A stretch of 64,000 nt of DNA from Alloascoidea africana (Eukaryota > Ascomycota > Alloascoideomycetes > Alloascoideales > Alloascoideaceae). Below the pieces are notes generated by a model, which worked only from the letters and a program-made list of their open reading frames with translations, was not told the DNA's origin and did not search any database. Position numbers and translations under genes: made by a program. The stretch's first letter is position 1; every line of letters begins with the position of its first letter. The stretch lies in assembly GCA_030581615.1 (NCBI GenBank), contig JAKTTT010000056.1, positions 1-64,000 of the forward strand, written 5' to 3'. Positions 4,801 to 60,323 of the stretch are shown here, in pieces.

Positions 4801-6009
4801 AGCACAAATACCACAATCTCCTTGGCAACTTCATGTTGAATTTGCAGTTACATTTGTTCATTAAAGATTACATTTTGTAGTGAAGACCAATTCAATCATG
4901 TCTGTTTCATCACCCAAGTCTTGGCTCAGAGAGCATATCCTCGGTCTAGTTTGCTAATGTGATATAGACATTGTAAAAGACAAGGAGGTTGGTAGTGTAG
5001 GCCTTTGCAGCAACAAGAGATGAATTGCCAAAATTAGACATCATGCCATGTCCTGGGGAGATTCAAACTCACATTCACATTTACAAATGTTGGAATCTAT
5101 TTAAGAATTTAGCCGTACTGGAGTATGCAAAGGCAAAAACGACAACCAATAGGTGAAAAATACATACTGGGACTATAATCAAGCAGTTTCAAGTTCCTGC
5201 ATTAATTCAGTTAGTTACATTTAACAAGAAAGTAACTGCCGGGTTACAGGGATGAAGATGGAAAAGTACAGGATGTGCAAAGGAGAGAATCAAAAATTTC
5301 CATTTCTTATCGCAGGAGAATCCATCAGGAGGGCTATAAATTCCTGTGGTGGTACTGAACCAAGAAATATACAAGTGAACAACCCAACCCAGCGATGATG
5401 TAGCAAATAGCTAGAGTAGTCACTTAAGGAAAAAGTTCCAGCACAAAGTTTTTCCTAAAATACTCAATTGAATGTGCTGCACCATGAAAAACTAAATTGA
5501 GATTGTCTCAGGTAGCCAATTTAAGGACCCCCACGAACCTTACCCCTGTCTACATGAAGAGGAGGAGGACAACCAAAGAGCATCACACGATGTGATCATC
5601 ATAGTACGACAGACTGCAAATTTTCATCGTTAAGCTGGCGCATATAGATATATTAATTACATAGGTAAACAAAAAGGCAGAATGCTCATGATAAGAACAG
5701 TAATCAAGCCCCCCGAACAAAAAAATGAGCAAAAAAAAATCCGAATGATGTGGATACTTACAGTTTAAAAAGCAGGGCGGTTGGTAAATGCAGAACGGTG
5801 AAGAAAAAAAGGAGGAAAGATAAGGAGAAAAAAGACGCCAAGCTTTATACACCTTTTTCTCAAGTCTAGCTATTATGTTATAGGCATGTCCCATTTTTTT
5901 CTCCTCTCCCAAGGATCTAGATAGGAACTCGGTACACAATTTCTTGCTCTAGTCTCTGTCTTAGTCTTGTTGTTCCCTCACTTTCCCACTCACGCTAAAT
6001 TTCTCGAGA
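1893..6009. other. Gene-free stretch of about 4.1 kb
   Basis: No open frame here shows recognisable domains, yeast-like composition or splice partners. The longest frames (about 80-118 codons, for example minus 2582-2920 and 5583-5939) have shadow-like composition with runs of hydrophobic or cysteine-rich residues, and I do not support them. The stretch lies between a tRNA/retroelement site and the 3' end of the carrier gene. It may hold decayed element or gene relics or unrecognised RNA genes. No CRISPR-like or strong tandem repeat is visible. Confidence 0.5.
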
Positions 6010-7131
6010 CTAGTTGAAATGGTTTAGATAAGTTTTTGCCATTTCATAAGTGGTCCAGGCAATAGCAGTAGCGGGCATGTTATATACAACTCTTGGACGA
6101 AGTCCTCTGAAAAAGCCCCTGAGGCCAGCTCGAAGGTACAAGATCCTTGCGGCGCCGAGGATTGAGTTTACACTTCTGACCGCAATGTCTGTGGAGACGC
6201 CCCGTGTCTGGAGTAAAGTCTTGATACAATCTAGTGGGATTGTGAGAGCGGCGGCCATTGCGCCTGAAATTCCGCCCGCAACACAGTGAATCATAGGGTT
6301 ATAGTGTTTTTCCGGGTTGAGCAGCTTTGAGACCGATTCGTAAGTGGTAAAGTTGATTACCTGGAAAGGTATGTTCATAAATAGGGTGGTGGGATAGGAT
6401 ACGTAGAAAGCAGAGATGCCCTCTTGACGATAGATTCGCAGAGCTGTTTGGAATATGTTGCTCTTCACCGTGGGTTTAGCTGATTGCGATGTATTCAACT
6501 GGTGAATCTGCATTCTCTGCTTGATGACATCAAAGGGGGTCATGAGGGCCTCGTTGGAGATGGTCGCACATGCTCCGGCCACCGACGTAATGACAGGATG
6601 GTGGTTCAGATGTGAATCGGGCCGCCCCTGGAGAAGTAGTCTCTTTGTGTATTCATAAATGGCATAATGGACTGCGTGGGCAGGTCCCGCGCCAAGAACC
6701 ACGGAGGAGACTCCTCGCCAAAGGCTTCTGGCGCCCTCTTTCGCAGTGATCTGGGAGATGGAGTTCATGATACCGGAATATGCCACCTGCGTGGAACCAG
6801 CGACAGAGCCCGAGCCAGTGGCAGCGGTGGAGGACAGCACCATTTGCATCCTCGTTTTGATGGCATCGACGGGGAACATGACTGCGTGCTCCATGATTCC
6901 GGCAAATGCTCCTGCTGCGAGCTGGTGGCCCAGTGTCGAGTGTTCTGGCAGCGATTCGTAGTCGGGTTCATCTTCCGAGAAGGCGGATACGTTTGGTGGT
7001 GGAGGTTGGGGTTCTACAGACTGTTCTGTTGATATTAGCTTGAAGTTTGGAATTGTGAACATTATGGAATCCGAGGATGTTGTGGGCGAGGATGGAGGCG
7101 ACAAGGTCGCATCCTGGTTTCTAGGGGTCAT
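6010..7131 (-). CDS. MRS4: Mitochondrial iron carrier, mitoferrin type (MRS3/MRS4)
   Basis: This encodes a 373-residue SLC25 carrier of the mitochondrial inner membrane. Three repeats are visible, each with the carrier signature: FPVDAIKTRMQ (about 86-96), TPFDVIKQRMQ (198-208) and IPLDCIKTLLQTR (298-310). The first two closely match the mitoferrin forms (MFP.DA.KTR.Q and TPFDV.KQR.Q), so the protein probably imports ferrous iron for Fe-S cluster and heme synthesis. I start at 7131, because the open frame upstream to 7347 encodes a hydrophobic, non-conserved extension. The acidic/proline-rich N-terminus of about 70 residues is somewhat long for the family. Assignment to MRS3 or MRS4 is arbitrary. 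Confidence 0.88.
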   Translation of the reverse strand: MTPRNQDATLSPPSSPTTSSDSIMFTIPNFKLISTEQSVEPQPPPPNVSAFSEDEPDYESLPEHSTLGHQLAAGAFAGIMEHAVMFPVDAIKTRMQMVLSSTAATGSGSVAGSTQVAYSGIMNSISQITAKEGARSLWRGVSSVVLGAGPAHAVHYAIYEYTKRLLLQGRPDSHLNHHPVITSVAGACATISNEALMTPFDVIKQRMQIHQLNTSQSAKPTVKSNIFQTALRIYRQEGISAFYVSYPTTLFMNIPFQVINFTTYESVSKLLNPEKHYNPMIHCVAGGISGAMAAALTIPLDCIKTLLQTRGVSTDIAVRSVNSILGAARILYLRAGLRGFFRGLRPRVVYNMPATAIAWTTYEMAKTYLNHFN

Positions 7132-8320
7132 TATACGTGTCCGGAGAAAGAAAGGGGGGTGTAGTGGATAGGTATAGAGGCACAAGCACCGGAATGTGGA
7201 AAGTAAGAGAAGAGAAAGAAGAAGAGAAAGAAGGAAAAGTGGTGGACAAAAAGATTGCATTTCGGAGGCACCACGAGGCCCGTTTTGGGAATATCGAAAC
7301 GATCTATCGGCAGATCGTCCAGAAGGACCACCTATGTCCGTTAACACCGGTACAACCCGCTACGGCCTGTATCCGGGAAAGAATCCCAAATCCTAATTCA
7401 AAACATGGACTGTCAACCAAGGAAGGCTGATGGCGTACAAAGGCGTTGTTTTATTCACAAGTATGTTTTGTTTTACCCCAGATATAGAGGATACCTCGTG
7501 GGAAATGGGCATGGCGTTTGGCCGAGTTCTCCATCGTACCGGAAAATGAAGCACACGCAAAATTTAAATAAAGGGGAAAAAAAACTCTAATAATAAACAG
7601 ACAAAAAATTGTGAGAGCAAAAATATCAAAACGAGAGTGTGATTCCCGGAGTGTTTGAACAATGAACAATGAACAATCAGGTTTCGAATGCCGAAACCAA
7701 ACAGGATGTGAAAGGTTTTGACAGTTTTGGGTGTATGGGATTCCGGAATTGCCAGATCGTGAATAGTAGTGAGCAGGAACAGGAACAGGAACTAAACTAT
7801 TATCAGTTTGCTATGACCGCAAGGGTGTTTGACCTATGGTTTATCGAGACCGGAATATGTAGTTACGGAAAATTACGGAGCAGGGAGTGTGTGATTTAGG
7901 AGGGGTTTGATCCAACAGGAACCATCAAGACCTGTGAAGTGAGAAGAAAGATCTGATATAGGGAGAGTGTGTAGAGTACAGACGTTTTACTGCATTGAGA
8001 TTGAGAGTACAGGTAGAGACACTTTATCTTCTTTACTCATAAGTACTATTGATGTACAAGAATGCCAGATCTGAAGATTAGGCATGTCAGAGAAAAGGAC
8101 ATGTGCAATATTAAGCTTTCTCCATTATTAAGTTAATGCTAGATGCATTACCGATCAAAAAAAAAAAAATAACAAACTCAAACAACAGGTTAATTGGAAC
8201 AAAACAGGTACAACGAAACAAGACATGAATGCTTGGTTATGCAATGACAAGAACACAGATGCAGGGCAAAAAGTAAAACTAAAAGAAATACAAGATAAAA
8301 GGGCTTTAGAATGTCATTAT
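7132..8320. other. Promoter region of the carrier and 3' side of the cell-wall gene
   Basis: This holds the upstream region of the minus-strand carrier gene and the 3' region of the minus-strand GPI gene. Short frames are present (for example 7669-7899 plus) but none has coding character that I can defend. No RNA gene is recognised. Confidence 0.4.
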
Positions 8321-9877
8321 TTAGACAATGCAGAGAAAGAAACCAAATACTGCAGCAACAACAGATGCTACAAGACTTGGACGACCAACAATAGCAACTG
8401 CTGGAGCCCCACCGGTGGAAATGGCCGAAATTTCGGAAGATGTTTCTTCTGCTGTGCCTGTCTTTTGCACGACAACTAGTGTGGTTGGTTCCTCACCATC
8501 AGAGCCGGACAACACTGAAGTTCTTGTTCCGATGATGGTAGCATCTGAATCATCAGAAGAGGTGGGCCGGACCACCACAACGGTGGTTGCCTCGTCTGTT
8601 CCAGATCCAGAGAGGATTTGTGTAGATACAATGCTTTCAGATGCTGTGCTTTCGGTGGTTCTTGCAGTTCTATCGCTGCGGGATGATCCATCAGATTCGG
8701 AGTCGGAGTTGGAGTCAGAGTCGGAATCAGATGAAGTGGTGGTAGCAGAAACAACAGAACCAGTGATCGAGCCACTATAAACTTGGGTAGCAGTAAGCAC
8801 AGTGGTATCCGAGCCAGATCCAATCACGATGCTTCCAGTGGTCTGTGTAACGATAACGTAGGTGGTTTCTTCATCGGTAGCGCTGGATCCAGATCCGGAT
8901 CCGGATCCGGATGCTGAGACAGAGACGGTTTCACTGTCTTTTGGAGAAGTGGAGGCGGAGGATGTAGCGCCAATTCCTCGATCTCCTGTTTCAGAGTCTG
9001 AAGATGATGTTGGTACAACTGATATTGATTCAGATGTAGTTTCGGACCCCGATACAGATGTAGACTCGGAAACAGAGACAGAGGTAGAATCGGATACGAC
9101 AACCGCTGTAGATTCAGTCTCAGATCCAGAGACAGATGTGGATGCAGATTCAGATTCAGACTCAGACTCAGATTCGGTGGACACAACAGTAGAAGCTTGG
9201 GTTTTGGACTCGGTTTGCGCAGTTACAGTTGCAGCGGATGTTGATTCTTGACTCCCAATTGCTCTATCACCAGATCCAGACTCAGACTCAGATTCAGATT
9301 CGGTGGAGACTGTGGTGGTAGCAATTTGGGGTTCAGACTCAGTTTGGGCGGTGATTGTTGATGTTACAGTAGACGAAGTAGTCTCTTGAGTTCCAATTGC
9401 TCTATCACCAGTTTCGGATTGGGAATTGGCAGATTCAGTAGACACCAAGGTTTCTGGAACTTGGACGAGAGTAGTTTGGCCTTGGACAGATTCGGAGTGA
9501 GCGCTTGTTGCTGCGGACACAATCACTGTTTCAGCATTGGAAACCACGGATTGGGAGTTGGAATCAGCGGATGCGGCTGTAGATTCTACTGTAGCGATGG
9601 CCGTAGCAGTGGCCGTAGCGGCGGCACCAGCACCAGTAGCGGTAGCGGTCTCTGTTGTTCCACCAATGATGGGGATGAGTGAAGTATCAATTGCGGTGGT
9701 TGTGGTTGTATAAGAATGGACATTACCATCAGCTGCGGACGAAATGTACACAATTTCATAGGTGATGTAATTTGTAGCGACTGCTACACCAATGTAGGAA
9801 GTGTAAGTAAAGATTTCTGCGTTTACCGCGTAGGTTGCAGAGAGTCCGAGGGTGGACAAGATGGAGACAAGTTTCAT
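8321..9877 (-). CDS. Serine/threonine-rich GPI-anchored cell-wall protein
   Basis: The 518-residue protein begins with a signal peptide (MKLVSILSTLGLSATYAVNA, cleavage likely after about residue 20). It continues with a short conserved-looking head (TYTSYIGVAVATNYITYEIV), then a very long Ser/Thr/Glu-rich stalk, and ends with a GPI-addition tail (small residues around STGGAPA, then the hydrophobic end VASVVAAVFGFFLCIV). The stalk contains SESESE runs and a recurring GDR(A/G)IG module. This architecture is that of O-mannosylated mannoproteins or adhesins cross-linked to glucan. The exact adhesin family is not recognised. A TATA box lies about 85 bases upstream. The long antisense frames are by-products of the repetitive composition. 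Confidence 0.8.
   Translation of the reverse strand: MKLVSILSTLGLSATYAVNAEIFTYTSYIGVAVATNYITYEIVYISSAADGNVHSYTTTTTAIDTSLIPIIGGTTETATATGAGAAATATATAIATVESTAASADSNSQSVVSNAETVIVSAATSAHSESVQGQTTLVQVPETLVSTESANSQSETGDRAIGTQETTSSTVTSTITAQTESEPQIATTTVSTESESESESGSGDRAIGSQESTSAATVTAQTESKTQASTVVSTESESESESESASTSVSGSETESTAVVVSDSTSVSVSESTSVSGSETTSESISVVPTSSSDSETGDRGIGATSSASTSPKDSETVSVSASGSGSGSGSSATDEETTYVIVTQTTGSIVIGSGSDTTVLTATQVYSGSITGSVVSATTTSSDSDSDSNSDSESDGSSRSDRTARTTESTASESIVSTQILSGSGTDEATTVVVVRPTSSDDSDATIIGTRTSVLSGSDGEEPTTLVVVQKTGTAEETSSEISAISTGGAPAVAIVGRPSLVASVVAAVFGFFLCIV
8970..9409 (-). repeat. Three GDR(A/G)IG repeat units in the cell-wall gene
   Basis: The block ccaattgctctatcacc (antisense of GDRAIG) occurs at 9255-9271 and identically at 9393-9409. 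A diverged copy, ccaattcctcgatctcc (GDRGIG), is at 8970-8986. The first two are followed by similar TS..TVTAQTES segments and a SESESE run, so units of roughly 45-50 codons have been duplicated within the stalk. Copy number probably varies between strains. Confidence 0.7.
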
Positions 9878-12174: not shown

Positions 12175-12471
12175 AAGAGTAACTGCCCAACCAGACCGCC
12201 GCCAGGTCAGGACTTGTCAGGCCAGGGTAGGCCTGGCCTGGGCTGGCCCGAGTGAGTGGGCTCCAGGGAAAGAAGCAGAAAATCGCGCTGGACCGGGGCG
12301 GAATTATAATCTCCTGCGCATGCAGCTGCACGGGTAGTACCCGCAGGACGGGCTGCGCGCGCCCTGCACGGCCCGACCCGGAAGTCCAGAAACTCTTTTA
12401 GCGGCGCTTCTGCTCAATTTTGCTCGTTCTGTCCTTCTCTTCTTTTCACACTTTCACGTTTGATTCTCGCA

Positions 12472-14478
12472 ATGTACTCCACGGGCTACTACAACCCTAA
12501 CGAACAGCCCTCCAACTACAGTTACAACTACCACCAGTCTCAGTCTCCGTCCCAGTCTCAGTCCCAGTCTCAGCAGCAGCTACAGCTACAGCAACAGGTT
12601 CAGGCTCAAGCTCAAGCTCAAGCTCAAGCGCAAGCGCAAGCTCAGGGACAAGGACAAGGACAAGGACAAGGACAGGGTCAGACTGTTCAGACCAGATCGC
12701 AACAGGCTCAACCGCAACCGCAGGCTCAGGCTCAGGCTCAGGCTCAGGGCCAGTCGCAATTGCAATTGCAATCACAGTCGCCATCGTCCACGCAACCACA
12801 GAATCAGAATCAGAACCAGAATCAGAACCAGAATCACCTCCTACAGCAGCATCAACAGGTTCAACTCCAACATCCAAACCAGCAGCAGACCCAGACCCAG
12901 ACCCAGCCTTTCCAACACCAGATCCAGCAACAGAAGATGATGGCGGCACAGTACGTCCATCCGGCCACGGCCTACCAGTACGGCTACGCCCAGTATCCCG
13001 CTTACTCCGGCTACAGCTACCCCCAGCAGCCAGCAGACTACTCGACCGGCTACGTGCCGTCCTCGCTGGCCCCGTCCCCCGTCTCCACCACGGCCAGCAC
13101 CGTCACCGCTGCCACCAGTGGCATTGGCATTGGCATGGGCACAGTGACCGCTGCTGCCGCTGGATCCAACGGCGCCGTGATGATCTCAGGCGCTCCCGGT
13201 GCCACTCCCGCTGCTGCTGGTGCTCCCGCTGGCACTGTCGCGGTCGCTCGCACGGGGATGCCCAGCCCAGCGTCCGCGGCCGGCCAGTACCCGCCGCCGG
13301 GACTGCGACCGCGCGTGACGACCACGCTGTGGGAGGACGAGAACACGATCTGCTACCAGGTCGAGGCCAACGGCGTGTGTGTCGCGCGGCGCGAGAACAA
13401 CAACTTCATCAACGGGACCAAGCTGCTCAACGTGGCCGGGATGACCCGCGGACGCCGCGACGGCATTCTCAAGTCGGAGAAGATCCGGCACGTCGTCAAG
13501 GTCGGCACGATGCACCTGAAGGGCGTGTGGATTCCGTTCGAACGCGCCCTGGACCTGGCGCAGCGCGAAAGCATTCTGGACTCGCTGTACCCGCTGTTCG
13601 TGAGAGACATCAAGCACGTGCTGTGCCCGCCGCACCCCGTCGCCGTCGGTTACCCTGCTGCTGCTGCCGCGGCGGCGGCCTGGCCGGGTTACCCGCCACG
13701 CCCCTCGGAGCACGCCCGCCCGCGAGCGACGCCGCGCGCGACGCCGTATCTGTCGCCCGTGTCCGTGGGCTCCGTGTCCGGGTCCGTGTCCGGCTCCGGT
13801 TCCGGCTCCGTGTCCGGCAGCGGCAGCTACGGTGCGGACCAGCCAGACCTCCAGGCGAAAACCCCCCAGCTGCAACACAGATCCAGCTCCAACACCCCGG
13901 TGACCCCCCAGAGCCAGAGCCAAAGCCAGAGCCAAAGCCAGAGCCAAAATGCCCAGCTGCCTGTTCCAACACCCGCTTCAACTGTCCCGACCACCTCCTC
14001 CGTCGTGACCGCTGCTCCTGTACTGGCAGCCTCCCCGAATCAAACAGGCGCCGTGAAGCAAACTGCCCAGACTTACTCCCAGATACCCGGCCATCAATAC
14101 TACCAGGCCTACGCTCCAAACTCCCAACACTATGCCTATGGCTACTCCCAGAACTCCTACTTGCCTCCTCAGCATCAGCATCAACAGCAACAGCAGCAGC
14201 AGATCCACTCGGCTGGTGCGCCATTGGCATCGCTCCCGCAATCCTCGTATACCTCCAATTCTTACAACCAAATAAACACAACTCCTGCTTACTTGGATGA
14301 CAAAAAATCCTTGACAAATACCCTTAATGGAGGAGTCCCTTCCCCTGCCCCCAACGGAAATACTGGTAAATCGGAACCCCTGGCCGTTGCTCTTGCTGCT
14401 GCCGGTGGGATCGTGAGAACGAGAAGCTACCCATACGATGACGAACCCCAATCGGTGAAAAAACAGAGAAAGGATTAG
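12472..14478 (+). CDS. EFG1: APSES-domain transcription factor, Efg1/Sok2/StuA family
   Basis: A 668-residue nuclear DNA-binding protein. The APSES domain (about 276-385) contains [46 protein letters not shown] and [13 protein letters not shown], all typical of Efg1, Sok2/Phd1 and StuA. The N-terminus is a Q-rich low-complexity region with QS, QA, QG and QN dipeptide runs; the C-terminal half has SG/SV and further Q runs. A basic [19 protein letters not shown] tail is a likely nuclear signal. I start at 12472 rather than the ATG 12 bases upstream, because MYSTGYYNP has the look of the family's N-terminus; the choice is uncertain. Such factors act downstream of cAMP-PKA in morphogenesis. CTG codons sit at invariant Leu positions. 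The central part is unusually GC-rich for the window. Confidence 0.92.
12533..12930 (+). repeat. Glutamine dipeptide-repeat coding tract
   Basis: This consists of successive runs of 6-bp units, each encoding Gln plus one other residue: cagtct (QS), caagct/caggct (QA), caagga (QG), cagaat/cagaac (QN) and cagacc (QT). The pattern indicates slippage expansion. The tract lies before the DNA-binding domain and probably forms a disordered, phase-separating activation region, as known for Efg1. It also produces long open antisense frames that are not genes. Confidence 0.8.
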
Positions 14479-30714: not shown

Positions 30715-33700
30715 ATGGATATGCCCAAGAAAGGTAGCGACACCTATTCAGCTGAAAGTCTTGACCATTCCAGCAAAATTAGTAACCAGGAGGATGGTCT
30801 ACTTTTGTCACAAGGAGAGGAGGAGCAGATATTGAAGCTTGCCAGGAAAATTACTTCTCGATCCCAACACACAGAACTAGATGAGCTTTCAGATGTAAAT
30901 CCGTTTATCGACCACTCCAACCCACTGTTAGACCCCAACAGCCCCGAATTTAGTTCACAAGCATGGATAAGAGAGGTGTTGGATGTTGAAAGAGCAACAA
31001 AGCGTGGAAATCCAGTATCTAGTGCCGGAATATCGTTCAAAAGTTTAGGAGCATTTGGCGATGGAACATCTTCTGACTACCAAAAAACAGTTACAAATGT
31101 GCTTCTGGCTGCTTGGCAAATGCTGAGAACCTCTGTGGGATCACAGAAGAAGACAAAAATTCAAATTCTGAGAAATTTCAATGGTCTGTTGCTCCCTAGC
31201 GAAACCTGCATTGTTCTTGGACGGCCTGGAAGGTAAGAAGAGTGTGCCTAATGGCGTTATATAATTTGTCTAACATGGTGATTTTCTTGTTAGTGGATGT
31301 TCTACTTTCTTGAAATCGCTCGCAGCTGATACTTATGGCTTCCATTTGAACCCAGAGACGGTCATAAACTGTCATGGTGTCCCGTACGACGAAATGGCAA
31401 CTCAGTTCAGAGGAGAGGCCGTTTACAATGCAGAAACTGAAGACCATTTCCCTAATCTCACTGTTGGCCAGACCCTCCAGTTTGCGGCCCAGGCTCGAAC
31501 TCCTCGAACCCGAATCGAGGGAGTTTCTAGAGAGCAGTACTCGGCACACATGAGGGACGTAATCATGGCCATGCTGGGGCTGTCGCACACCATCAACACC
31601 AAGGTAGGAGACGCTTACATTCGAGGGTGCTCTGGAGGCGAGCGAAAGCGAGTGTCCATTGCCGAAGTAGCGCTGGCTGGCGCGCCCATCCAGTGCTGGG
31701 ATAACTCGACTCGAGGACTCGATTCGGCCACAGCGCTTGAGTTCTGCCGGATGCTGAGACGAATGGCCAAAGCGATGAAGGCGGTGATGTTTGTGTCGCT
31801 GTACCAAGCTTCGCAGTCCTCTTACGACCTGTTTGACAAAGTGACAGTTCTGTACGAGGGAAGACAAATCTACTTTGGCCGGACAGACCGCGCAAAGCAG
31901 TTCTTTGTTGACATGGGATTCGAGTGTCCAGCCAGACAGACCACGGGAGACTTTTTGACCTCGCTGACCAACTCTATCGAGCGGGTTGCTAGACCTGGGT
32001 TCGAGAATAAGATTCCGCGTACGCCAGACGAGTTTGAACAGAGATGGCAGCAGAGCGAGGAGTATCGAGCCCTGATCCAGGAGATTGACGAGTACAATGA
32101 AAAATACACCAAGGGCTGCGAAGCATACCAGCGATTTGTGGAGAATCGGATGCTTCGAAAGTCTAAGCACTTGTCTCCCAAATCGCCATATACCCTTTCA
32201 ATTAGGAAGCAGATTGGCATATGTGTCACAAGAGGGTTCCAGTGTTTGCGAGGTGATATGTCTATGGCAGGAACCACCATTTTTGGATTTTCTCTTGTTG
32301 CTATCATCATTGCCAGTATATTTCTGGATCTAGAGGATAATACTGCGTCTTTCTATAAAAGAGGCGCGTTACTATTCTTTGCGATATTGATGAATTCGTT
32401 TTCGTCTGCTCTTGAGATTCTTACCCTATACCATCAGAGGCCAATTGTTGAAAAGCATTCTAGGTACGCCTTTTATCATCCATTTTGTGAGGCAGTCGCA
32501 TCTATGGTATGTGACATACCTACCAAGACAGCAACGGCAATTTCCTTCAATATCCCTCTGTATTTCATGACAAATTTGAGAAGAACTCCAGGTCACTTCT
32601 TTACTTTCTTTTTGTTCTCGTTTTGCACTACTTTTGTCATGTCCAATATATTCAGAACAATAGGTGCTTTCACGCGGTCGATTCAACAAGCAATGCCATT
32701 TGCGGCCATGATCATTTTGGCACTCGTTCTGTATACCGGCTTCACAATTCCGATTTCAAATATGCACCCTTGGTTTAGATGGATCAATTATATCAATCCA
32801 ATTGCATACAGTTTTGAAAGCATTCTTATCAACGAATTTTCAGATAGGAATTTTGAGTGCTCAATTTATATTCCATCTAGTGGCGCTTATGATAAAGCGC
32901 CTTCTTTTGCTAGGTCTTGTACCACTGTGGGTGCAATAAGTGGAGAGACCTTTGTAAGAGGTTCTAGATATTTGTCCCTTTCTTTCGAGTATGAAAAGTC
33001 CCATCTATGGAGAAACTTTGGTATCATCATTGGCTTTTTCTTCCTTTTCCTCGTCACTTATCTTCTCGGAGTTGAGTTTGTTCCTGGTAAAAAGTCCAAA
33101 GGTGAAATTCTGATTTTCAAGCGTGGGTATCATCCCCAAAAGAAGCAGTCTAATGATGAAGAGGCAGGAATCAGTGAAGAAAAGAACACAACTGAAGGAA
33201 CTGCTTCTGATGAATTTCGTATTGCAGCACAAACGGGAATTTTCCAATGGAGCGACGTTTGTTACGACATCAAAATCAAAGATAAACCAAGACGTCTTTT
33301 AAGTGGCGTTGATGGATGGGTTGAACCTGGGAAAATGACCGCTTTAATGGGAGCTACAGGAGCAGGTAAAACCACTTTGCTCGATGTTTTAGCTGATCGT
33401 GTTACCATGGGTGTCGTTACAGGTGAGATGCTAGTCAATGGTAAGCCAAGAGTGGCTTCTTTCCAAAGGAAAACGGGCTATGTCCAGCAGCTGGATTTGC
33501 ATTTGGAAACATCGACTGTTCGTGAAGCCTTAGAATTTAGTGCTTTTCTCCGTCAACCATCTAATGTGCCTAAAGCGGAAAAGGTTAGCTATGTCAAAGA
33601 AGTAATCAAGATTCTGGAAATGGAACCCTATGCAGAGGCAGTTATTGGAATCTCTGGTGAAGGTCTGAATGTGGAGCAACGGAAACGATTGACAATTGGT

Positions 33701-35179
33701 GTAGAACTTGCTGCAAAGCCCGAACTATTATTGTTTCTGGATGAGCCTACATCTGGTTTAGATTCGCAAGCTGCCTGGACTATATGCGAGCTTATGAAGA
33801 AATTAGCAAATAATGGACAAGCAATTCTATTCACTATTCATCAGCCATCAGCGATGCTATTCCAACAGTTTGATCGGCTTTTATTTTTGGCTGAAGGTGG
33901 CAGAACAATATACTTTGGAGATATTGGAGAACAAGCGTCGACCTTGATAGACTATCTAGAAAGGAATGGCGCGCCAAAATGCCCACCTTCGGCAAATCCT
34001 GCTGAATGGATGCTTGAAGTTATCGGTGCAGCTCCTGGCACAGAAGCTAATAAAGACTATCACGAAGTTTGGTTAAGTAGTCCAGAATACCAAAGGCTCA
34101 AGGGAAGATTGAAATCAATGGCCACCACTTTGGTGAGAGAGAATACTGTGGTTGACCAGCAACAATTCCATTCTTATGCAGCATCGTTCCCTGTTCAAGT
34201 GCTTGTGGTATTTAAGAGAGTGTGGCAGCAGTTCTGGAGATCTCCAACATACATTTGGTCAAAGATGCTGATGTGTTTGTTACCAAACTTGTTTATCGGC
34301 TTTTCGTTTTGGATGGCTGGGAACACGATCCAAGGGCTACAAAACCAAATGTATGCTCATTTCATGATGTTCACCGTTTTTATAAACTTTGTTGTACAAA
34401 TCATGCCAACATTTGTGACACAAAGAGAACTTTATGAGGTACGCGAACGGCCTGCAAAGACGTACTCTTGGAAGGCATTTATGCTAAACAATGTGTTGAT
34501 TGAGCTGATTTGGCAGTCAATTATCTCGGTGCTTTCTTTTGTCTCTATTTACTATCCGATTGGGTTGTACAAGAATGCACAATACACAGATACAACAGCC
34601 ATACGAGGGTTCTTGTTCTTTTTGTTCATGTGGGCGTTTTATGCCTTCTCGTCGACTTTTTCTCACTTGGTGGTTGCTTCTATTGAAAATCCAGCGACGG
34701 CTGGTGCTGTTGTCGTTATCCTGTGTGCTCTGACATTACTATTTTGTGGTGTATTGGCTATTCCCGATAACATGCCGCGGTTCTGGATTTTCATGTATCG
34801 TGTTTCTCCATTCAACTACTTGATTTCAGGGTTCTTGACTACAGGTATTTCTCATGCTCCTCTCACTTGCTCTGACACAGAATATACTGTTGTTGATCCC
34901 CCTGGTAATGCGACTTGCAGCGCGTATTTCAAGCCGTATATGAGTGTTGCAGGTGGATATTTGGCGAATCCCAATGATACAAGTAGTTGCCACTATTGTA
35001 CTATGACATCCACAGATGATTATCTGAGTATTTCGCTCGGTCTCAAGTACAGTGAACGGTGGAGAAATTTTGGAATCATCATGGTCTACGTTATATTCAA
35101 CATTTCAGGCGCTCTGTTTCTCTATTGGCTTTTCCGTGTTCCTAAGAAGTTGGCAAAGAGGCGAGTTAAGAAAGAATAA
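30715..35179 (+). CDS. PDR-type ABC drug efflux pump 1 (two exons)
   Basis: A full-size ABCG pump with NBD-TMD-NBD-TMD order, 1467 residues, likely in the plasma membrane exporting drugs or lipids. Exon 1 is 30715-31232, intron 31233-31293 (61 nt), exon 2 31294-35179. The intron splits the first Walker A, GRPG(S)GCST, whose usual lysine is Cys, as is normal for PDR NBD1. Further NBD1 motifs are GCSGGERKRVSIAEVAL and CWDNSTRGLDSATALEF. NBD2 has GATGAGKTTLLDVLADR, LNVEQRKRLTIGVELAAKP and LLLFLDEPTSGLDSQ. It resembles Pdr5/Snq2/Cdr types; the exact orthologue is unclear. Most of NBD1 (31340-32181) is nearly identical to pump 2. Confidence 0.95.
31340..32181 (+). repeat. Near-identical 842-bp tract shared with pump 2 (copy A)
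   Basis: This aligns without gaps to 37680-38521 at a constant offset of 6340. The only differences I find by eye are two adjacent bases at 31410-31411 (ga versus ag, Arg versus Lys codon). Of it, 31412-32181 (770 bp) is identical. On both sides the genes diverge at once, at synonymous and non-synonymous sites. The tract is visibly more GC-rich than its flanks. This is best explained by recent gene conversion. Confidence 0.95.
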
Positions 35180-37040
35180 TGGAGATGAAGGTTCCTTGTT
35201 TTTTATCTTTTTTATGCTCGATAGTATTTTCTGTCTTACAAATACAATACAGTAGAAGCTATCATATGGCTCTTTTATATTTGGTTCATAAAAGAGTCCT
35301 GGTTATTAGCATTATATCACCACTTTAAATTAGATTTTCTTTTTTTTTAGTAACGTGCTTCAAATACGAACAGGTAGTTCCATCGAAAGGGCCTTTGATT
35401 GTCAACACATATTTAAGACCCATCCACTTAAATCTATTTGCTAATAGTTTTCTCAGAATTTTCATTTAGTATCTTTTATCTGGAGGGATATATCCTAGCC
35501 GAGTAGCCGTTTTAGTTCTCCAGGACGGTCCAGCAGATTGCAGCGTTTTTTCAGCTACCAGAATATCCTAAAACATTCTCTAAAGTAGGAAGTTCACCTA
35601 TCTGTAAACATGTCTTTTGTGACCGCTTCCCTGTTGCTTGTCAAGTGTATTATTTGTCTCCAAAAGCCTCGAAAGTTCACAGGAGCACAAAACTCGTCAA
35701 TAGCAGAATAACTTGGAGTTGGATAGCTTTTCTGATGTCTGGCAATTTGATCTTTAATGAAGCCAGCTGAAAATAGAGCTTAAGGAACATCTGCCAAAGT
35801 GGCCTCTCGTGGCACTCAAGTGCTAACATTGGATGTTTGCTCTTTTCTAAGTTCGCTGTATGTTTATCGAAATGTTGTCCAGTCAATGTTTGCTGTGTTA
35901 TCAGTGCATCCATTTTCAGTAAACTTGATAATCCAAGAGCACGGGTGATTGCATTCTGTGTATCAATTGTCGGTGTTTCCCGATTCTCGCAGGACATTAA
36001 CTGTATTCTCAACACCAGAATGCCTGGGTGAAAATTCCCAATCAAAGAGGTCAAAAATGAACCGGAAAGGGCTCAGCCAAAGCCTCCCTTCTCTGCTGAA
36101 GTTAACATGCTCAAATCCGCTGGAGAATCGGTTTGAGCGCACCGTGCTTCCATTCTAGTCTGCGATGTATTTTCACTGGCTGAGTAGATATGAAGTCGTC
36201 AGAGGACTTAAACTTGGGTCTCGTTTGCTAACCTTGATAACAACTAAAGAAATGATTTCTTTTAAAACACGTATTACGTGGGCCAAGACCATTTCGGTTT
36301 TAAAGGAGGTTAAGCAAGGTCATCGGAGAGTGCCCGTTTGATAGAAGTAACGATATTATTCATAACTGTCTAAAGTAGTTCCAATAGATCGTTCTCGGTA
36401 GGTGTTTCAAGGAGAAGTAAATATAATAACTCTAACATGGCTAAATATATACAGCCATCATTCAAAAATTCCGATGTAAATGCCTCTAACAGCCTTCAAG
36501 TGCCATGAAAAAAGGTGAAAAATGGAAACATCGGTGATTTTGTTCAAAGGGTTCGGTGGCGCCCAATTTTTAAGGATGCGGAAGCAATGAGGTTCCGGAA
36601 GTAGAATGTGATCGTGATTTGTGGGTTTGGCATTTATGGGATTCGAGAGTCAAAGATGACATGGGTTGGGATTAGATTGGTGCTTTTAAGATGCTATTCT
36701 GCATCACAAATTAAATATAACCAGAACCCAAGCTTCTTTGTGTCTGGCATCAAAACCAGAAAGAACTTTTTTTAAATTTTGGAGATTCTGGCATCTGTTA
36801 TCAGGTTACTCGAGATGGTCAAAGTAGAGAAAAAACGCTGTCCGCCTGAAAAGCCACCAATCCTGTCGTTGACCTGTGTCGGTTGTGATGCATGCCCAGT
36901 CCAATGTCGGATGGTAAGGGCACTATTTGCAATAGTTATTAGAATAAAATGAACAACATTGCCTTTCTTTTGGAATTCTTTAAAAGGCCACCTGCCCCTG
37001 GTTCTTTACGCTCGAATAATTTAGCTAGAGGACTTCAGCA
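35180..37040. other. Intergenic region between the two ABC pumps
   Basis: About 1.9 kb with the 3' region of pump 1 and the promoter of pump 2. Apart from the short cysteine-rich frame at 36815-36952 I see no gene. No clear PDRE is seen. Confidence 0.4.
36815..36952 (+). CDS. Short cysteine-rich ORF or upstream ORF before pump 2
   Basis: A 45-codon frame starts with ATG and ends 88 bases before the pump 2 start. It contains CVGCDACPVQC, the CX2CX2CX3C spacing of [4Fe-4S] ferredoxin motifs, with an extra Cys upstream (KRCPPEKPP). It is too short to identify, and a GTAAGG directly after codon 33 could be a splice donor of a leader intron. It could be a translated upstream ORF, a small protein or chance. 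Function unknown. Confidence 0.25.
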   Translation: MVKVEKKRCPPEKPPILSLTCVGCDACPVQCRMVRALFAIVIRIK

Positions 37041-40000
37041 ATGGGTTCTTCCAAGGTTAGCGACACCTATTCCTCGAAAGAAGAAAAGTCTTATCAGTCG
37101 TCTCCTGAAAGAGATGATGTTTCTCTTTCTCGAGGTGAAGAGGAGCAAATCCTTAGGCTTGTCCGAACAATAACATGCGAGTCCCACGCAGGAAATCGCA
37201 CTAATATAGATGACGACGAAGACTACAACGATTTGTACAATCCTTTTATTGACCACTCAAATCCAAAACTCGATCCCAACAGCCCTCAGTTTAGCGCGGA
37301 AGCTTGGGTTCAAACTATCTTAGATGTCGACAGACCTGGACTTGATGGTCGCATTGGTGCGGCGTCGGGGGTTTCCTTCAAAAATATAGGCGCATACGGG
37401 TTTGGCACATCTGCAGATTATCAGAAAACAGTGGCCAACACGTTTCTGGCAACCTGGGGAAAGATGAAAGCACTCATTGGAGCAGAAAAGAAGAGGAAGA
37501 TTCAGATTCTCCACGATTTTAGTGGTCTTGTGAAACCTGGGGAGATGTGTGTTGTGCTTGGACGTCCTGGAAGGTAAGATTGTTTCTTGATTCGCTTCGT
37601 ATCGTTATCTAATGATAAAAATCATCTTCCTAGCGGATGTACAACTTTCTTGAAATCGCTCGCAACAGATACCTATGGTTTCCATTTGAACCCAGAGACG
37701 GTCATAAACTGTCATGGTGTCCCGTACGACGAAATGGCAACTCAGTTCAAGGGAGAGGCCGTTTACAATGCAGAAACTGAAGACCATTTCCCTAATCTCA
37801 CTGTTGGCCAGACCCTCCAGTTTGCGGCCCAGGCTCGAACTCCTCGAACCCGAATCGAGGGAGTTTCTAGAGAGCAGTACTCGGCACACATGAGGGACGT
37901 AATCATGGCCATGCTGGGGCTGTCGCACACCATCAACACCAAGGTAGGAGACGCTTACATTCGAGGGTGCTCTGGAGGCGAGCGAAAGCGAGTGTCCATT
38001 GCCGAAGTAGCGCTGGCTGGCGCGCCCATCCAGTGCTGGGATAACTCGACTCGAGGACTCGATTCGGCCACAGCGCTTGAGTTCTGCCGGATGCTGAGAC
38101 GAATGGCCAAAGCGATGAAGGCGGTGATGTTTGTGTCGCTGTACCAAGCTTCGCAGTCCTCTTACGACCTGTTTGACAAAGTGACAGTTCTGTACGAGGG
38201 AAGACAAATCTACTTTGGCCGGACAGACCGCGCAAAGCAGTTCTTTGTTGACATGGGATTCGAGTGTCCAGCCAGACAGACCACGGGAGACTTTTTGACC
38301 TCGCTGACCAACTCTATCGAGCGGGTTGCTAGACCTGGGTTCGAGAATAAGATTCCGCGTACGCCAGACGAGTTTGAACAGAGATGGCAGCAGAGCGAGG
38401 AGTATCGAGCCCTGATCCAGGAGATTGACGAGTACAATGAAAAATACACCAAGGGCTGCGAAGCATACCAGCGATTTGTGGAGAATCGGATGCTTCGAAA
38501 GTCTAAGCACTTGTCTCCCAAGTCTCCATATACCCTTTCAATTAAGAAGCAGATTGTTTTGTGCATAACAAGAGGATTTGACAGGCTAAGAGGAGATGCT
38601 TCGATGACCTTGACCACAATAATAGGCAATAATATCATGGCTTTCATCATTTCCAGCATGTTTTATAACCTCCCCCATGATACAGGTTCTTTTTACAAGA
38701 GAGGATCTCTGCTTTTCTTTGCAATTCTTTCGAATGCTTTTTCTTCTGCCTTAGAGGTATTTACTTTGTATGCTCAAAGACCGATAGTGGAAAAGCATTT
38801 CCGTTACGCCTTTTATCATCCATTTTGCGAAGCAGTTTCCTCAATAATATGTGATCTCCCTTGTAAGCTTATAACCTCAGTGTTTTTCAATCTGATTTTG
38901 TACTTTATGAGCAACTTGCGCCGGACCCCCCAGCATTTCTTTACGTTTTTCTTGTTCTCCTTTTTTACCACTCTTGTAATGTCACACATTTTCCGTTCGG
39001 TTGCCGCTTTTACCAGGTCTCTTGAACAGGCATTGCCTTTTACGGCACTTCTGATTCTAGCACTTGTCATCTACACCGGGTTCACAATTCCTATTTCTGA
39101 TATGCATCCATGGTTCCGTTGGCTCAACTATCTGGATCCCATTGGGTACGCATTTGAGAGTTTATTGATTAACGAATTTGGAGGACAGGAATTCGACTGT
39201 TCTCTGTTTATTCCTCAGGGCCCAGGATACGCCGATGTTCCTGCAAATTCAAAATCATGTACAACTGTGGGGTCCCTCCCTGGTGAAAACTTTGTTCGTG
39301 GAACACTATATCTTTCAAAATCGTTCACCTATAAAACCGGGCATTTATGGAGAAACTTTGGCATTATAGTGGGGTTTATGCTATTCTTTGGAGCTCTTTA
39401 CCTGGTCGGTGTGGAGTATGTTTCGGCATCAAAATCTAAGGGTGAGATTTTGATATTCAAAAGGAATAGCAAGCAAATGAATCAAATTCTGGAAATGAAT
39501 CAAAAGAATGACGAGGAAGCGAAAAGCTCTACAATGCTGGAAAAACAAACCAACAGCATAGATTCATCCTCCGGAGAGTTTAATCTAGCCGCTCAGAAAG
39601 GAATATTCCAATGGCAGCATGTCACTTACGACATTAAAGTCAAAGACGAAACAAGAAGAATTCTCGACGACATTGATGGCTGGGTTGAACCAGGAAAATT
39701 CACAGCTTTGATGGGTGTTACAGGCGCAGGTAAAACCACGCTTTTGGATGTTCTTGCCGATCGAATTAGAATGGGCGTTGTTACCGGCGAGATGTTGGTT
39801 AATGGTATGGCGAGAAGTGCTTCATTCCAGAGAAAGACAGGTTATGTTCAGCAGCTAGATCTCCATCTGGCAACAACCACAGTTCGGGAGGCTTTAACAT
39901 TTAGTGCTTTGCTTCGTCAGCCATCAGAGATCCCCCGGAATGAAAAGCTTGCCTATGTGGATGAGGTTATCAAGATTTTGGAAATGGAGTCCTATGCAGA

Positions 40001-41549
40001 TGCGATTGTTGGCGTGCCAGGAGAAGGTCTAAACGTTGAGCAGAGGAAAAGATTAACAATTGGTGTTGAATTAGCAGCAAAACCCAAGCTTTTATTGTTT
40101 CTGGATGAGCCTACATCTGGGCTTGACTCTCAAACGGCCTGGTCAATTTGCGCGTTGATGAGAAAACTGGCAAATAATGGACAAGCTATTCTATGCACCA
40201 TCCACCAGCCATCGGCAATACTGTTTGAACAGTTTGATCGTTTGTTATTCCTAGCAAAAGGTGGGAAAACGGTATACTTTGGTGATACTGGTAAAAATTC
40301 GTCTACAATGATTGACTACTTTGAGCGTAATGGAGCTCATCATTGTCCACCAAATGCAAACCCCGCTGAATGGATGCTTGATGTAATTGGAGCTTCTCCC
40401 GGTAGTGTGAGCAATAAAGATTACCATGAAGTATGGAAGCAGAGCCCTGAACATGCTGCTTTGAGACAGAAGCTTGACTTAATGGCAAACGAACTTCATT
40501 TGGAACGCACCATGACAGTCACCGATAATATTAAGGAGAATTCTTTTGCTGTTCCGTTCCTGGAGCAGTTCTTTGTGGTATTTGACAGAGTCTGGCGTCA
40601 GTTCTGGCGCTCGCCGGTTTACATCTGGTCCAAATTCGCATTATGTGTCGGCACCAACTTCTTTGTAGGATTTTCGTTCTGGATGGCTGGAAACTCCCTA
40701 CAGGGACTTCAAAACCAAATGTATGCACACTTTATGATGCTGACGGTTTTTGGCAATCTGACCCAGCAAATCATGCCCAGCTTTGTGACACAAAGAGAAC
40801 TTTTTGAAGTTCGTGAAAGACCCGCGAAAACGTATTCCTGGCAGGTTTTCATCCTGACCAACATACTGATTGAAATCATTTGGCAAATGGTTATGGGTAT
40901 TTTATCGTTTGTGGTTTTGTATTATCCGATTGGGCTGTACAAGAATGCGGAGTATACAGACTCTGTAAATATTCGAGGATTCACTTTCCTCCTTTTCATA
41001 CTGGTGTTTTACGTTTTCGCCTCCACTTTTTCTCACATGGTTGTGGCTGGAATCGAGAATCCAGAAACGGCAGGAAATGTTGGGGTTCTACTGTTTTCAC
41101 TGACCTTGTTCTTTTGTGGAGTGATAGCTCCAAAGGACTCTCTGCCCAAGTTTTGGACATTCATGTACTATGTTTCTCCTTTCACCTACTTGATATCGGG
41201 CTTTCTATCGTCAGGATTAGCGCATGCTCCTATTACGTGTGAGGAGAAGGAATTTGCGGTTGTTCAGCCTGCAAATGCTTCTCAGACCTGCGAGCAGTAT
41301 TTTAGCATGTACATGGAAGCTGCTGGAGGATATTTGCAGAATCCACAAAGCACCAGTGACTGTCAATTCTGTAGTTACTCGAGTACAGACAGCTTTCTTG
41401 ATAATTTGGGGGTCGAGTTTGACGATAGGTGGAGGAACTATGGCATTTTAATCTGTTATTGTGTTTTCAACATTTTTGCGGCTCTATTTTTTTATTGGTT
41501 GGCTAGAGTCCCTAAAAAACACAAAGACAAGAGAAATGCTGAGAAATGA
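37041..41549 (+). CDS. PDR-type ABC drug efflux pump 2 (two exons)
   Basis: A tandem paralogue of pump 1, 1482 residues, with the same NBD-TMD-NBD-TMD layout. Exon 1 is 37041-37573, intron 37574-37633 (60 nt), exon 2 37634-41549. The intron again cuts the NBD1 Walker A after GRPG, in the same phase, so it predates the duplication. NBD2 has GVTGAGKTTLLDVLADR, LNVEQRKRLTIGVELAAKP and LLLFLDEPTSGLDSQ. The N-terminus shares SDTYS...SRGEEEQIL and NPFIDHSNP..DPNSP with pump 1. Outside the shared NBD1 tract the two proteins are clearly diverged. The start at 37041 (MGSSKVSDTYS) aligns with that of pump 1. Confidence 0.95.
37680..38521 (+). repeat. Near-identical 842-bp tract shared with pump 1 (copy B)
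   Basis: Partner of 31340-32181. It begins about 46 bases inside exon 2 and ends at the codons for SPKSP, just before the first membrane domain. It thus covers nearly the whole NBD1 beyond Walker A, including the signature and Walker B motifs, and excludes the membrane domains. Confidence 0.95.
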
Positions 41550-58023: not shown

Positions 58024-58625
58024 GCGAAGCGGGAGGAAATGTGTATAGCTGTATAGAGCCAATGCCAGCTTCCAAGTGTCGATAGTAGAGATGTTTGTGT
58101 AGACCAGTAGACCGCCCACGTGAAGACTTCTCTTATGACTCACCGCCGGAGAGAATAAAACGAGGACTTCTTCTCTCTCTGCAGACACCGCCTTGGTTTG
58201 GGGCCCGGGCTTGTTGTTGAATCCGATCATTTTTTGTCTTTTTGTCTTTTCCGACGTGGACTTGTAGTTCGACTGCGAGTCATCTCCGATCTTTCCAGCC
58301 AGCGGCGTATTTTTACTGTTTTATTTTTTCCAACGTTTGTGGTCTGGTCTGGGGTACGAAACCAATCAAGATTCATACCAGACCCCAGAAACCAGAACCA
58401 ATCCATATCGCTGAGAGCCAGATTTCCGGGACCGGCACGTTTTGCAAATTTATTCTGGACTAGCCTGTTTCCTATAAACAATAATTCGCTCAGGCTCAGG
58501 CTCAGGCTCAGGGTGAGACTCAACCTACCCCTTTTTAAGTCCTTTCTCACACTTTTCAGTTTTTGTCTCCTTTCCCATCACTCTTTCTTCTTCATTTTTT
58601 TGAGCAAGTCTACACACAAAACGAT
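58024..58625. other. HOM3 promoter and YNK1 3' region
   Basis: About 600 bases holding the 3' end of YNK1 and the promoter of aspartokinase. It contains a CACGTG at 58117-58122, a Gcn4-type site at 58136-58142 and a short GGCTCA repeat (58491-58512) near the start codon. No gene is seen. Confidence 0.5.
58136..58142 (+). promoter_or_regulatory. Gcn4-type site TGACTCA upstream of aspartokinase
   Basis: This is an exact 7-bp Gcn4/AP-1 consensus about 485 bases upstream of the HOM3 start. In S. cerevisiae, HOM3 is under general amino-acid control by Gcn4, so the site fits the neighbour's role. Binding here is inferred. Confidence 0.5.
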
Positions 58626-60323
58626 ATGACGGTTCAACCGACGTTTATGCCTCTACAGGAGCTGGCCACAAACGGCTGCAACACGGAGGAGGACAAGAGC
58701 TGGATCATACAAAAGTTTGGGGGCACCAGCATTGGCAAGTTCCCCGAGAAGATTGCCGATGAGATCGTCAAAGTTTACGTCCAGCAGTTCCGGGTCGCGG
58801 TGGTGTGTTCTGCACGTTCCACGGGGCTCAAGATCGAGGGGACCACGTCGCGGTTGATGGAGGCGGCGGAGCTGGCACAACAGCCCAAGAGTACAGCCAA
58901 AAGCAAGTTTCTGGTGAATGGCCAGGCCCAGGGTAAGGCTCAGGGCCATGGCAAAAGCCAACAGGAGTTTGAAAAAGTGGTTGAGTTGATCCGGACGGAC
59001 CATCTCGAGACGGCCCGGCACCGGATCCGGAGCCCGGTGCTGCTGGCCGAACTCGAACGCGCGATCGACGCCGAGTGCGGCCACGTGACCCGGCTGCTGG
59101 GGGCCGCGCAGGTGATTGGCGAGGTGAGCACCCGCACGCTGGACTCGGTCGTAAGTGCGGGCGAGAAACTCGCTGCCCGCTACCTGTGCGCGCTGCTGCG
59201 CGACCACGGCGTGCCCGCCGAGTACGTGGACCTGTCTGCAGTGGTGCCGCCGCAGTCGCCGTCGCCATCCGGTTCGCCGACGACGAGCCCAATGACTAGT
59301 TCGCCTGGGATGTACGCGGATCTGGCGGCTGCGATAGGGGCCGCGGTGAAGAAGGCCAGCCGTGGCGGGCGCGCGGTTCCCGTGCTCACGGGCTTCTTTG
59401 GCGGCGTGCCGGGCGGGCTGGTGCAGAGTGTCGGGCGCGGGTACACGGACCTGTGCGCGGGGCTGGCGGCGGTGGCCACCGGGGCGCGGGAGCTGCAGAT
59501 CTGGAAGGAGGTGGATGGCATCTTCACGGCGGACCCGCGCAAGGTCCCGCAGGCGCGGCTGCTGGCGGCGGTCACGCCGGACGAGGCCGCAGAGCTCACG
59601 TACTACGGGTCCGAGGTGATCCACCCGCTGACAATGGAGCAGGCCATCGCGGCCCGGGTCCCGATCCGCATCAAGAACGTCCAGAACCCGCGCGGCCCGG
59701 GCACCGTCGTGTACCCGGCGCACCTGGCCCTGGGGCTGGCGGGCTCGGACCGGGGGCCGGACCGGGACGCGTACCGGCGGCGGATCCCGACCGCAGTCAC
59801 CACGAAACGCAACATTGTGGTTATCAACGTGCACTCCAACAAGCGAAACCTATCGCACGGCTTTCTCGCAGGCATCTTTTCGACCCTCAACAAGTGGAAG
59901 TTAGTGGTCGACCTGATCTCGACCTCCGAGGTCCATGTGTCCATGGCCATCCACGCCTCAGACTCCTCCGACCATCCGCACTTTCGCAGCGCGGTCGAGG
60001 AGCTGTCCAAGATGGGTTCTGTCGATGTGACCAAAAACCTCGCGATCGTGTCTCTGATCGGGAAGCAGATGAAGAGCTTGATAGGCATTGCGGGCAAGAT
60101 GTTTGCAACCCTGGCTGATCACAAAATCAACATTGAGATGATCAGCCAGGGCGCGAACGAGATCAACATCTCTTGTGTCATCAGCCAGAGTGACTCTGTC
60201 AGAGCCCTACAGGTCTTGCACGAACATCTGTTGACCGAATCTGAAGAGCAGCTGGGAGAGGAATATGAAGCAAATGGCTTTTTGAATGGCAATGCCAATG
60301 GCAATGCCAATGGGAAGGCTTAG
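58626..60323 (+). CDS. HOM3: Aspartokinase
   Basis: This enzyme phosphorylates L-aspartate, the first step to threonine, methionine and isoleucine. The 565-residue protein (527 in S. cerevisiae) starts at 58626. It carries KFGGTSIGK (30-38), GRGYTDLCAGLAAVATGARE with the catalytic-domain acidic site ELQIWKEVDGIFTADPRKV, and EAAELTYYGSEVIHPLTMEQ. Two ACT domains follow (NIVVINVHSNKRNLSHGFL and NLAIVSLIGKQMKSLIGIAG), the regulatory part for threonine feedback. Low-complexity inserts occur at about 96-120 and in the PSPSGSPTTSP linker. An NGNANGNANG tail ends the protein. The middle of the gene is far more GC-rich than its neighbours. Confidence 0.96.
   Translation: MTVQPTFMPLQELATNGCNTEEDKSWIIQKFGGTSIGKFPEKIADEIVKVYVQQFRVAVVCSARSTGLKIEGTTSRLMEAAELAQQPKSTAKSKFLVNGQAQGKAQGHGKSQQEFEKVVELIRTDHLETARHRIRSPVLLAELERAIDAECGHVTRLLGAAQVIGEVSTRTLDSVVSAGEKLAARYLCALLRDHGVPAEYVDLSAVVPPQSPSPSGSPTTSPMTSSPGMYADLAAAIGAAVKKASRGGRAVPVLTGFFGGVPGGLVQSVGRGYTDLCAGLAAVATGARELQIWKEVDGIFTADPRKVPQARLLAAVTPDEAAELTYYGSEVIHPLTMEQAIAARVPIRIKNVQNPRGPGTVVYPAHLALGLAGSDRGPDRDAYRRRIPTAVTTKRNIVVINVHSNKRNLSHGFLAGIFSTLNKWKLVVDLISTSEVHVSMAIHASDSSDHPHFRSAVEELSKMGSVDVTKNLAIVSLIGKQMKSLIGIAGKMFATLADHKINIEMISQGANEINISCVISQSDSVRALQVLHEHLLTESEEQLGEEYEANGFLNGNANGNANGKA

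Follow-up and report, generated by a model that had tools for sequence, protein, structure and literature searches.

Background

The closest described systems are drug pumps of the PDR family in other yeasts. In the portions of text available, the respective papers describe recurrent conversion of the tandem PDR pumps ABC11-ABC1 in Pichia kudriavzevii (Candida krusei) (PMC6053246), chimeras with suggested gene conversion at the tandem CDR1B locus of Candida parapsilosis (PMC11620501), and suggested gene conversion for a gene of Zygosaccharomyces rouxii (PMC2763886). Here we analyse a stretch of 64,000 nucleotides from Alloascoidea africana (assembly GCA_030581615.1, contig JAKTTT010000056.1, positions 1 to 64,000; hereafter the window), whose plus strand carries two tandem PDR pump genes, pump 1 and pump 2. 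These are 1861 bp apart and have a nearly identical block in their first nucleotide-binding domain (NBD1). Very probably this block results from a recent ectopic conversion between old tandem paralogues and is the latest outcome of a recurrent process acting on the ATPase domains. For the GC richness of the blocks, repeated repair that prefers G and C is the favoured, though not proven, explanation.

As to the base composition of converted sequences, a 2005 paper by Benovoy et al. reportedly found that duplicates in yeast and Arabidopsis gain G+C when converted, and Galtier (2003) is said to have linked ectopic conversion in mammalian histones with higher G+C, whereas a plant and fungal tetrad study of 2018 reportedly found no GC bias in conversion; in each case this is the claim of the title.

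A homogenised tract in the tandem pumps

The homogenised block (the tract) and its immediate context comprise the following features:

31340..32181, plus strand: tract copy in pump 1, NBD1 codons 189-468, from behind Walker A to just short of the first transmembrane domain (TMD1)
37680..38521, plus strand: tract copy in pump 2, partner of 31340..32181
31410..31411 (GA) versus 37750-37751 (AG), plus strand: sole mismatches within the tract, Arg212 AGA versus Lys AAG
32182..35179, plus strand: pump 1 beyond the 3' edge of the tract (TMD1-NBD2-TMD2), unconverted, 664 of 999 residues equal to those of pump 2

The two copies are identical at 840 of 842 bp, in runs of 70 bp and 770 bp separated by the two adjacent mismatches; the residue concerned, 212, is R in 25, K in three and S in one of 33 other aligned rows, with a gap in four. 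Outside the tract the longest identical run of pump 1 and pump 2 measures 29 bp, and in the paralogue pairs on contigs C60/C14 and C23/C51 no identical run of at least 26 bp was found. That the near-identity extends to synonymous sites, as a sequence-only reading of the window had stated, is borne out by the fourfold sites: none of 132 differs inside the tract, compared to 193 of 309 outside (log10 P ~ -56, assuming independent sites). At the protein level the pumps agree at 279/280 residues in the tract, 104/185 upstream and 664/999 downstream, where 1962 of 2997 bases are identical; by domain, the residue identity is 0.51 in the N-terminal part, 0.65 in TMD1, 0.80 in NBD2 and 0.62 in TMD2. 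Stepwise comparison of the two genes confirms that the level of identity is not constant, but differs between tract and flanks, and immediately downstream it amounts to 55-73% in 100-bp steps across 32201-33100. The tract ends about 10 residues short of TMD1 (codon 468, with the Pfam domain ABC2_membrane starting at residue 479), which agrees with its earlier placement behind Walker A and before the first membrane domain. All five families of direct repeats of at least 60 nt in the window lie within the two pump genes.

Each pump retains its own diverged exon 1, intron, transmembrane domains (TMDs) and NBD2. Because the flanks keep their own sequence, the tract reflects a replacement within existing genes and not a new duplication. 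Near-identity that includes synonymous sites, with divergent sequence on both sides, is what characterises an ectopic conversion tract, and on these sequence grounds we predict it to be one. We regard the conversion as recent since synonymous divergence is absent inside clear edges and since a second, independent pair of pumps is homogenised as well (see below); a recent gene conversion confined to NBD1 of the window pair is therefore supported.

Gene layout and protein features of the pumps

The two genes are composed as follows, with splice sites read from the sequence alone and no transcript support:

join(30715-31232, 31294-35179), plus strand: pump 1 (PDR/ABCG), 1467 aa
30715..31232, plus strand: exon 1 of pump 1, coding for the N-terminal domain and for NBD1 as far as mid-Walker A; PF14510
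31233..31293, plus strand: intron of pump 1, phase 2, within the Walker A serine codon; unhomogenised
31294..35179, plus strand: exon 2 of pump 1, remaining NBD1, TMD1, NBD2, TMD2
join(37041-37573, 37634-41549), plus strand: pump 2 (PDR/ABCG), 1482 aa
37041..37573, plus strand: exon 1 of pump 2; PF14510
37574..37633, plus strand: intron of pump 2, at the same place in Walker A as that of pump 1
37634..41549, plus strand: exon 2 of pump 2, second part of the coding sequence
31628..31630, plus strand: TGC codon of Cys285, in the NBD1 ABC signature RGCSGGE common to both pumps

Each pump thus possesses one short intron at an identical position, within the codon for serine in Walker A of NBD1. Pfam matches of the pumps are PF14510, PF00005 (two stretches), PF01061 (two stretches) and PF06422; the reverse domain order NBD1-TMD1-NBD2-TMD2, together with PDR_CDR and the N-terminal domain, is that of a full-size PDR/ABCG transporter. 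In a sequence comparison with the PDB, residues 7-1296 of the query align at length to the solved CDR1 chains 9s2c and 9iuk, and chain 7p03, listed as 'Pleiotropic ABC efflux transporter of multiple drugs', is likewise matched at length. The Walker A of NBD1 is degenerate (GRPGSGC(S/T)T); NBD2 features the Walker A GxTGAGKTT and a degenerate signature, LNVEQ. This combination predicts asymmetric ATP sites as in the Pdr5/Cdr1 type, and we assign both proteins to the Pdr5/Cdr1-type full-size ABCG multidrug pumps, with drug export as their predicted function.

At position 285 both pumps possess Cys, and the 120 homologues listed have V (119) or I (1). Of the tract positions, 117 are conserved in 95% or more of these homologues, and both pumps have six departures from them in common; at 160 equally conserved NBD2 positions, pump 1 departs at eight and pump 2 at six. 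Unusually fast protein change in the tract was considered and rejected: the rate of departures (6/117) is no higher than in NBD2 (8/160 and 6/160), so that Cys285 is a noteworthy residue and not a sign of unusual evolution. In Cdr1, according to the accessible part of the source, the NBD1 signature (C1) joins Walker A2 and B2 in the catalytically active site (PMC8544900).

A second, inverted pump pair

A search of the genome (23,180,953 bases in 138 contigs, the window contig being C56) yielded another six loci, each aligned to the greater part of the pump over at least 1165 of the 1301 query residues; match counts in this search are lower bounds. Two copies, C124A and C124B, are situated at opposite ends of contig C124 (17,463 bp), inverted and inward-facing, tail to tail. 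Both are truncated there, at the same codon, and the two contig ends have their first 115 bp in common. The start of C47 and the end of C81 contain the 5' parts of two pumps, whose terminal 115 bp, including 34 bp intron, are identical and have no occurrence in the genome beyond those two contig ends. Equal overlaps flanking a missing piece are the trace of an unresolved repeat in an assembly graph. Apparently, the C124 pair possesses an identical NBD1 block of about 520 bp that the assembler collapsed, a length estimated arithmetically from the homology to pump 1, with a missing middle of about 290 bp. The direct repeat of the window may have been assembled through, and the inverted one not, because a two-copy loop leaves one path through the graph if direct and two if inverted.

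Inside the contig end, the first 94 codons of C124A and C124B differ at six codons by one base each, and in the next two windows of 50 codons the DNA identity decreases to 74% and then 55%. This decaying edge with scattered differences suggests events differing in age and length. The pair is also homogenised in NBD2, where 405 of 411 bases are identical, including a run of 308 bp. As the NBD1 sequence of the C124 pair matches the tract of the window at no more than 75-76%, the two pairs must have been homogenised separately. The restriction to NBD1 claimed in the sequence-only reading consequently holds for the window pair, but not for the family. Homogenised blocks were not seen in the four pumps of the pairs C60/C14 and C23/C51, nor in the closest outside relatives, P0001-P0003, where identity is similar in NBD1 (0.74-0.79) and in TMD1 (0.71-0.77) in a comparison of proteins only and with uncertain orthology.

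Recombination between the inverted NBD1 blocks would invert contig C124, and the 5' and 3' halves of its pumps may be swapped among strains. Between the two pumps lies an open reading frame (ORF) of 924 aa (ORFs listed for positions 3600-9000).

Base composition of the homogenised blocks

The tract is indeed more GC-rich than the exons around it: GC amounts to 53%, compared to 40% in 1 kb either side of the pump 1 copy, and G or C occupies the third codon position (GC3) in 173 of 280 tract codons, compared to 467/1186 for pump 1 and 515/1201 for pump 2 outside the tract (Fisher test with codons taken as independent, p 1.4e-11 and 1.3e-8, respectively). Across the homogenised blocks GC3 is 0.59-0.67. 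A blind scan of each gene for a GC3-rich segment selected codons 253-466 (pump 1) and 258-474 (pump 2), above all 200 shuffles each, in a control that is slightly lenient (shuffled genes scanned at segment-length steps of 5, real ones at steps of 1). For the C124 pair the scan selected codons 17-85 of the remaining part, which is the NBD1 block, with one of 200 shuffles reaching the value of C124A and none of 200 that of C124B; the unconverted C14, C23 and C51 were unremarkable (p 0.57, 0.08 and 0.52). In the NBD2 block, GC3 is 81/137 and 83/137 in the converted C124 pair (0.59 and 0.61; p 0.003 and 0.0001 versus the rest of each gene), whereas the six unhomogenised pumps have 42 (pump 1), 47 (pump 2), 53 (C60), 38 (C14), 45 (C23) and 39 (C51) of 137 codons (0.28-0.39). 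In the NBD1 segment, the unconverted pumps C14, C23 and C51 have GC3 of 92/247, 126/278 and 103/278, respectively, and C60 has 134/248.

Codon selection of the type found in RPL3, the only highly expressed reference used for codon choice, was tried as a source of the high GC3 and rejected: G-ending fourfold codons, which the tract uses (39/132, compared to 93/526 in the rest of pump 1), are shunned by the two RPL3 genes (18/352), whose fourfold GC is 0.36. Since this type of codon choice does not explain GC3, we favour repeated GC-biased conversion as the origin of the GC richness, without regarding it as proven. One copying event merely transmits the composition of its donor; GC richness, if linked to conversion, therefore needs many earlier events.

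Mechanism and alternative explanations

The recent ectopic conversion probably took place when a break in one NBD1 was repaired, non-reciprocally, on the other pump copy as template, with either pump as the possible donor. Within this clade of pumps the ATPase domains would be converted repeatedly, namely NBD1 in the window pair and NBD1 and NBD2 in the C124 pair, and many earlier events with GC-favouring repair may have raised the GC content of the blocks. Two causes, singly or together, most likely account for the confinement to NBDs. On the one hand, the paralogues may be similar enough for a long heteroduplex in these domains only, and because NBDs are the most conserved parts, confinement can follow from similarity alone. 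On the other hand, copying of membrane domains would erase differences in substrates, and selection might act against longer tracts.

Several observations qualify this account or weigh against it. The sequence-only reading had both flanks diverging at once, which is correct downstream; the upstream edge is softer, as 39 of the 46 exon bases preceding the tract are identical, with unalike introns upstream of them. The NBD1 block of the C124 pair is deduced from contig ends, its middle being absent from the assembly, and a short-read assembly, if used, could make the two copies look more alike than they are over the 770-bp part of the window tract. Most objections concern base composition. GC richness is lower in the first third of the tract than in the rest, and the segment found blindly begins at codon 253, not at 189. 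The unconverted C60 likewise reaches a high GC3 in its NBD1 segment (134/248), and its C-terminal quarter (C60:32116-33039) has 0.63 compared to 0.47 outside, above all 200 shuffles; the genome search found no near-identical partner of this C-terminal segment, the best other match being 72%. C124A has GC3 of 0.65 at pump-1 codons 841-880, where its partner has 0.40 and the pair is 81% identical. Finally, 20 long ORFs of the window, some of which may not be genes, span GC3 values of 0.37-0.78. The stretches in C60 weaken the step to GC-biased conversion, as they show GC richness outside converted blocks as well. The suggestion of repeated GC-biased conversion made in the sequence-only reading agrees with the NBD2 block and with the GC3 contrast between tract and flanks, but it is at odds with C60 and with the stretch at codons 841-880 of C124A, which are GC3-rich without homogenisation.

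For these reasons it is possible, though on balance unlikely, that the conversion is real and its GC richness unrelated to repair bias, reflecting instead local or ancient composition or a codon choice other than that of RPL3. The partnerless stretches of C60 and the wide GC3 range of the window ORFs would fit such an origin, but the NBD2 segment is GC-rich in both homogenised pumps and in none of the six others, and RPL3 shuns the G-ending codons used in the tract. A third donor rich in GC, be it a paralogue or a sequence from a different species, copied into both pumps, would account for the jump in GC at the tract edges, and the sequence-only reading had proposed a differently biased paralogue in this role. 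We consider it very unlikely: a genome-wide search with the tract returned the two copies and two matches of 75-76% only, no closer donor being found in the assembly, and a third donor would leave the GC-rich homogenised blocks of different sequence in the second pair unexplained. Two trees, one for the tract and one for the remaining protein, each comprising 27 of the 120 listed homologues, hand-chosen for spread, and eight pumps of the genome, both unite pump 1 and pump 2 with C124A, C124B and P0001-P0003 (clade support 1.0); a foreign donor was rejected on account of this identical placement.

An assembly artefact, in which two similar NBD1 sequences were merged and one consensus was written into both genes, is improbable to much the same degree. 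The genome is in 138 contigs, contigs of the second pair end at exact 115-bp overlaps, so that graph collapse probably does occur, and a direct repeat may be threaded twice with one consensus. However, collapse needs near-identity beyond the word length, from general knowledge of such graphs, and sequences as divergent as those downstream of the tract (about 35%) would not merge; moreover, a two-base difference between the copies is preserved with 70 identical bp beyond it, and the NBD2 block of C124 was assembled as two distinct copies with six differences in 411 bp. Allowing for the small probability of such an error, we take the stated identity over the 770-bp part as an upper bound. Scarcely credible, in our opinion, is selection on the nucleotide sequence itself, by an overlapping antisense gene or an RNA element that keeps the tracts identical without exchange. 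In both copies an antisense frame runs without a stop through the whole tract of 280 codons, but it is broken in the six other pumps (where at most 60-134 codons in a row are open, the test covering 170 codons in the two C124 pumps), and the absence of synonymous change inside clear edges is better explained by copying. The open antisense frames extend over 31196-32197 (333 codons) and 37605-38537 (310 codons) on the minus strand, and are most simply a by-product of a tract without TTA, CTA and TCA codons.

Beyond recent ectopic conversion as such, we tentatively raise the possibility that NBDs are exchangeable cassettes in this lineage, with recurrent conversion in at least two pairs, tandem and inverted, maintaining a shared motor while the membrane domains diverge; GC-biased repair would then create GC-rich islands and bring rare residues such as Cys285 into both pumps.

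Genomic context

Some other genes of the genome are also present in more than one copy. Two RPB2-like genes (C11 and C71) have 81% protein and 74% DNA identity over the compared parts, RPL3 is doubled (99.5% protein and 89.5% DNA identity) and HSP60 is perhaps doubled, while MCM matches number six. Among the 120 hits listed for RPB2, record P0121 ranks first with 90% identity, and the highest from named species are those of Sugiyamaella mastotermitis (84%, P0123) and Trichomonascus vanleenenianus (81%, P0129), which points to a budding yeast resembling the Trichomonascaceae. A partial large-scale duplication or a hybrid origin of the genome is possible. Within the window, the most GC3-rich of the 20 long ORFs include 58539-60320 with amino-acid-kinase and ACT domains (GC3 0.78) and 12310-14475 with a KilA-N domain (0.68). 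An inverted repeat (540-637 / 750-847) possesses arms of 98 nt that are 94% complementary and 112 nt apart.

Comparison with known systems

Two pump pairs with homogenised blocks and two without constitute a small natural experiment, in which the effects of conversion on composition and protein evolution can be followed with internal controls. If confirmed, the locus could help to test the GC bias of ectopic conversion in yeasts, a point on which the titles of papers disagree. Like the surveys of Benovoy and Galtier, to judge from their titles, our blocks may tie ectopic conversion to higher G+C. Those studies reportedly covered duplicates at large or one family, whereas here blocks are compared with unconverted segments within the same genes and between paralogue pairs. 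The 2018 tetrad study is said to have addressed allelic meiotic conversion in other species; it counsels caution on the GC step proposed here.

The locus also demonstrates that tandem pumps can have a common ATPase yet different membrane parts, and since gene trees of such pumps differ by domain, they call for caution. Conversion restricted to NBDs of PDR pumps was not reported in the literature found by our search, which covered partial texts and is not proof of absence. The available part of the report on Pichia kudriavzevii ABC11-ABC1 (PMC6053246) describes, as in the window pair, tandem PDR pumps homogenised by gene conversion; there, however, whole genes are 98% identical, whereas here only blocks are affected, NBD1 in the window pair and NBD1 plus NBD2 in the second pair. 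The Candida parapsilosis CDR1B locus likewise comprises tandem CDR pumps with suggested conversion, but the portion of that paper available to us (PMC11620501) deals with copy-number change and overwriting by a neighbouring gene, and no domain-limited block was seen in it. Conversion of drug pumps is thus a known kind of event; new in Alloascoidea africana are domain-limited blocks in two pump pairs, with unconverted controls in the same genome.

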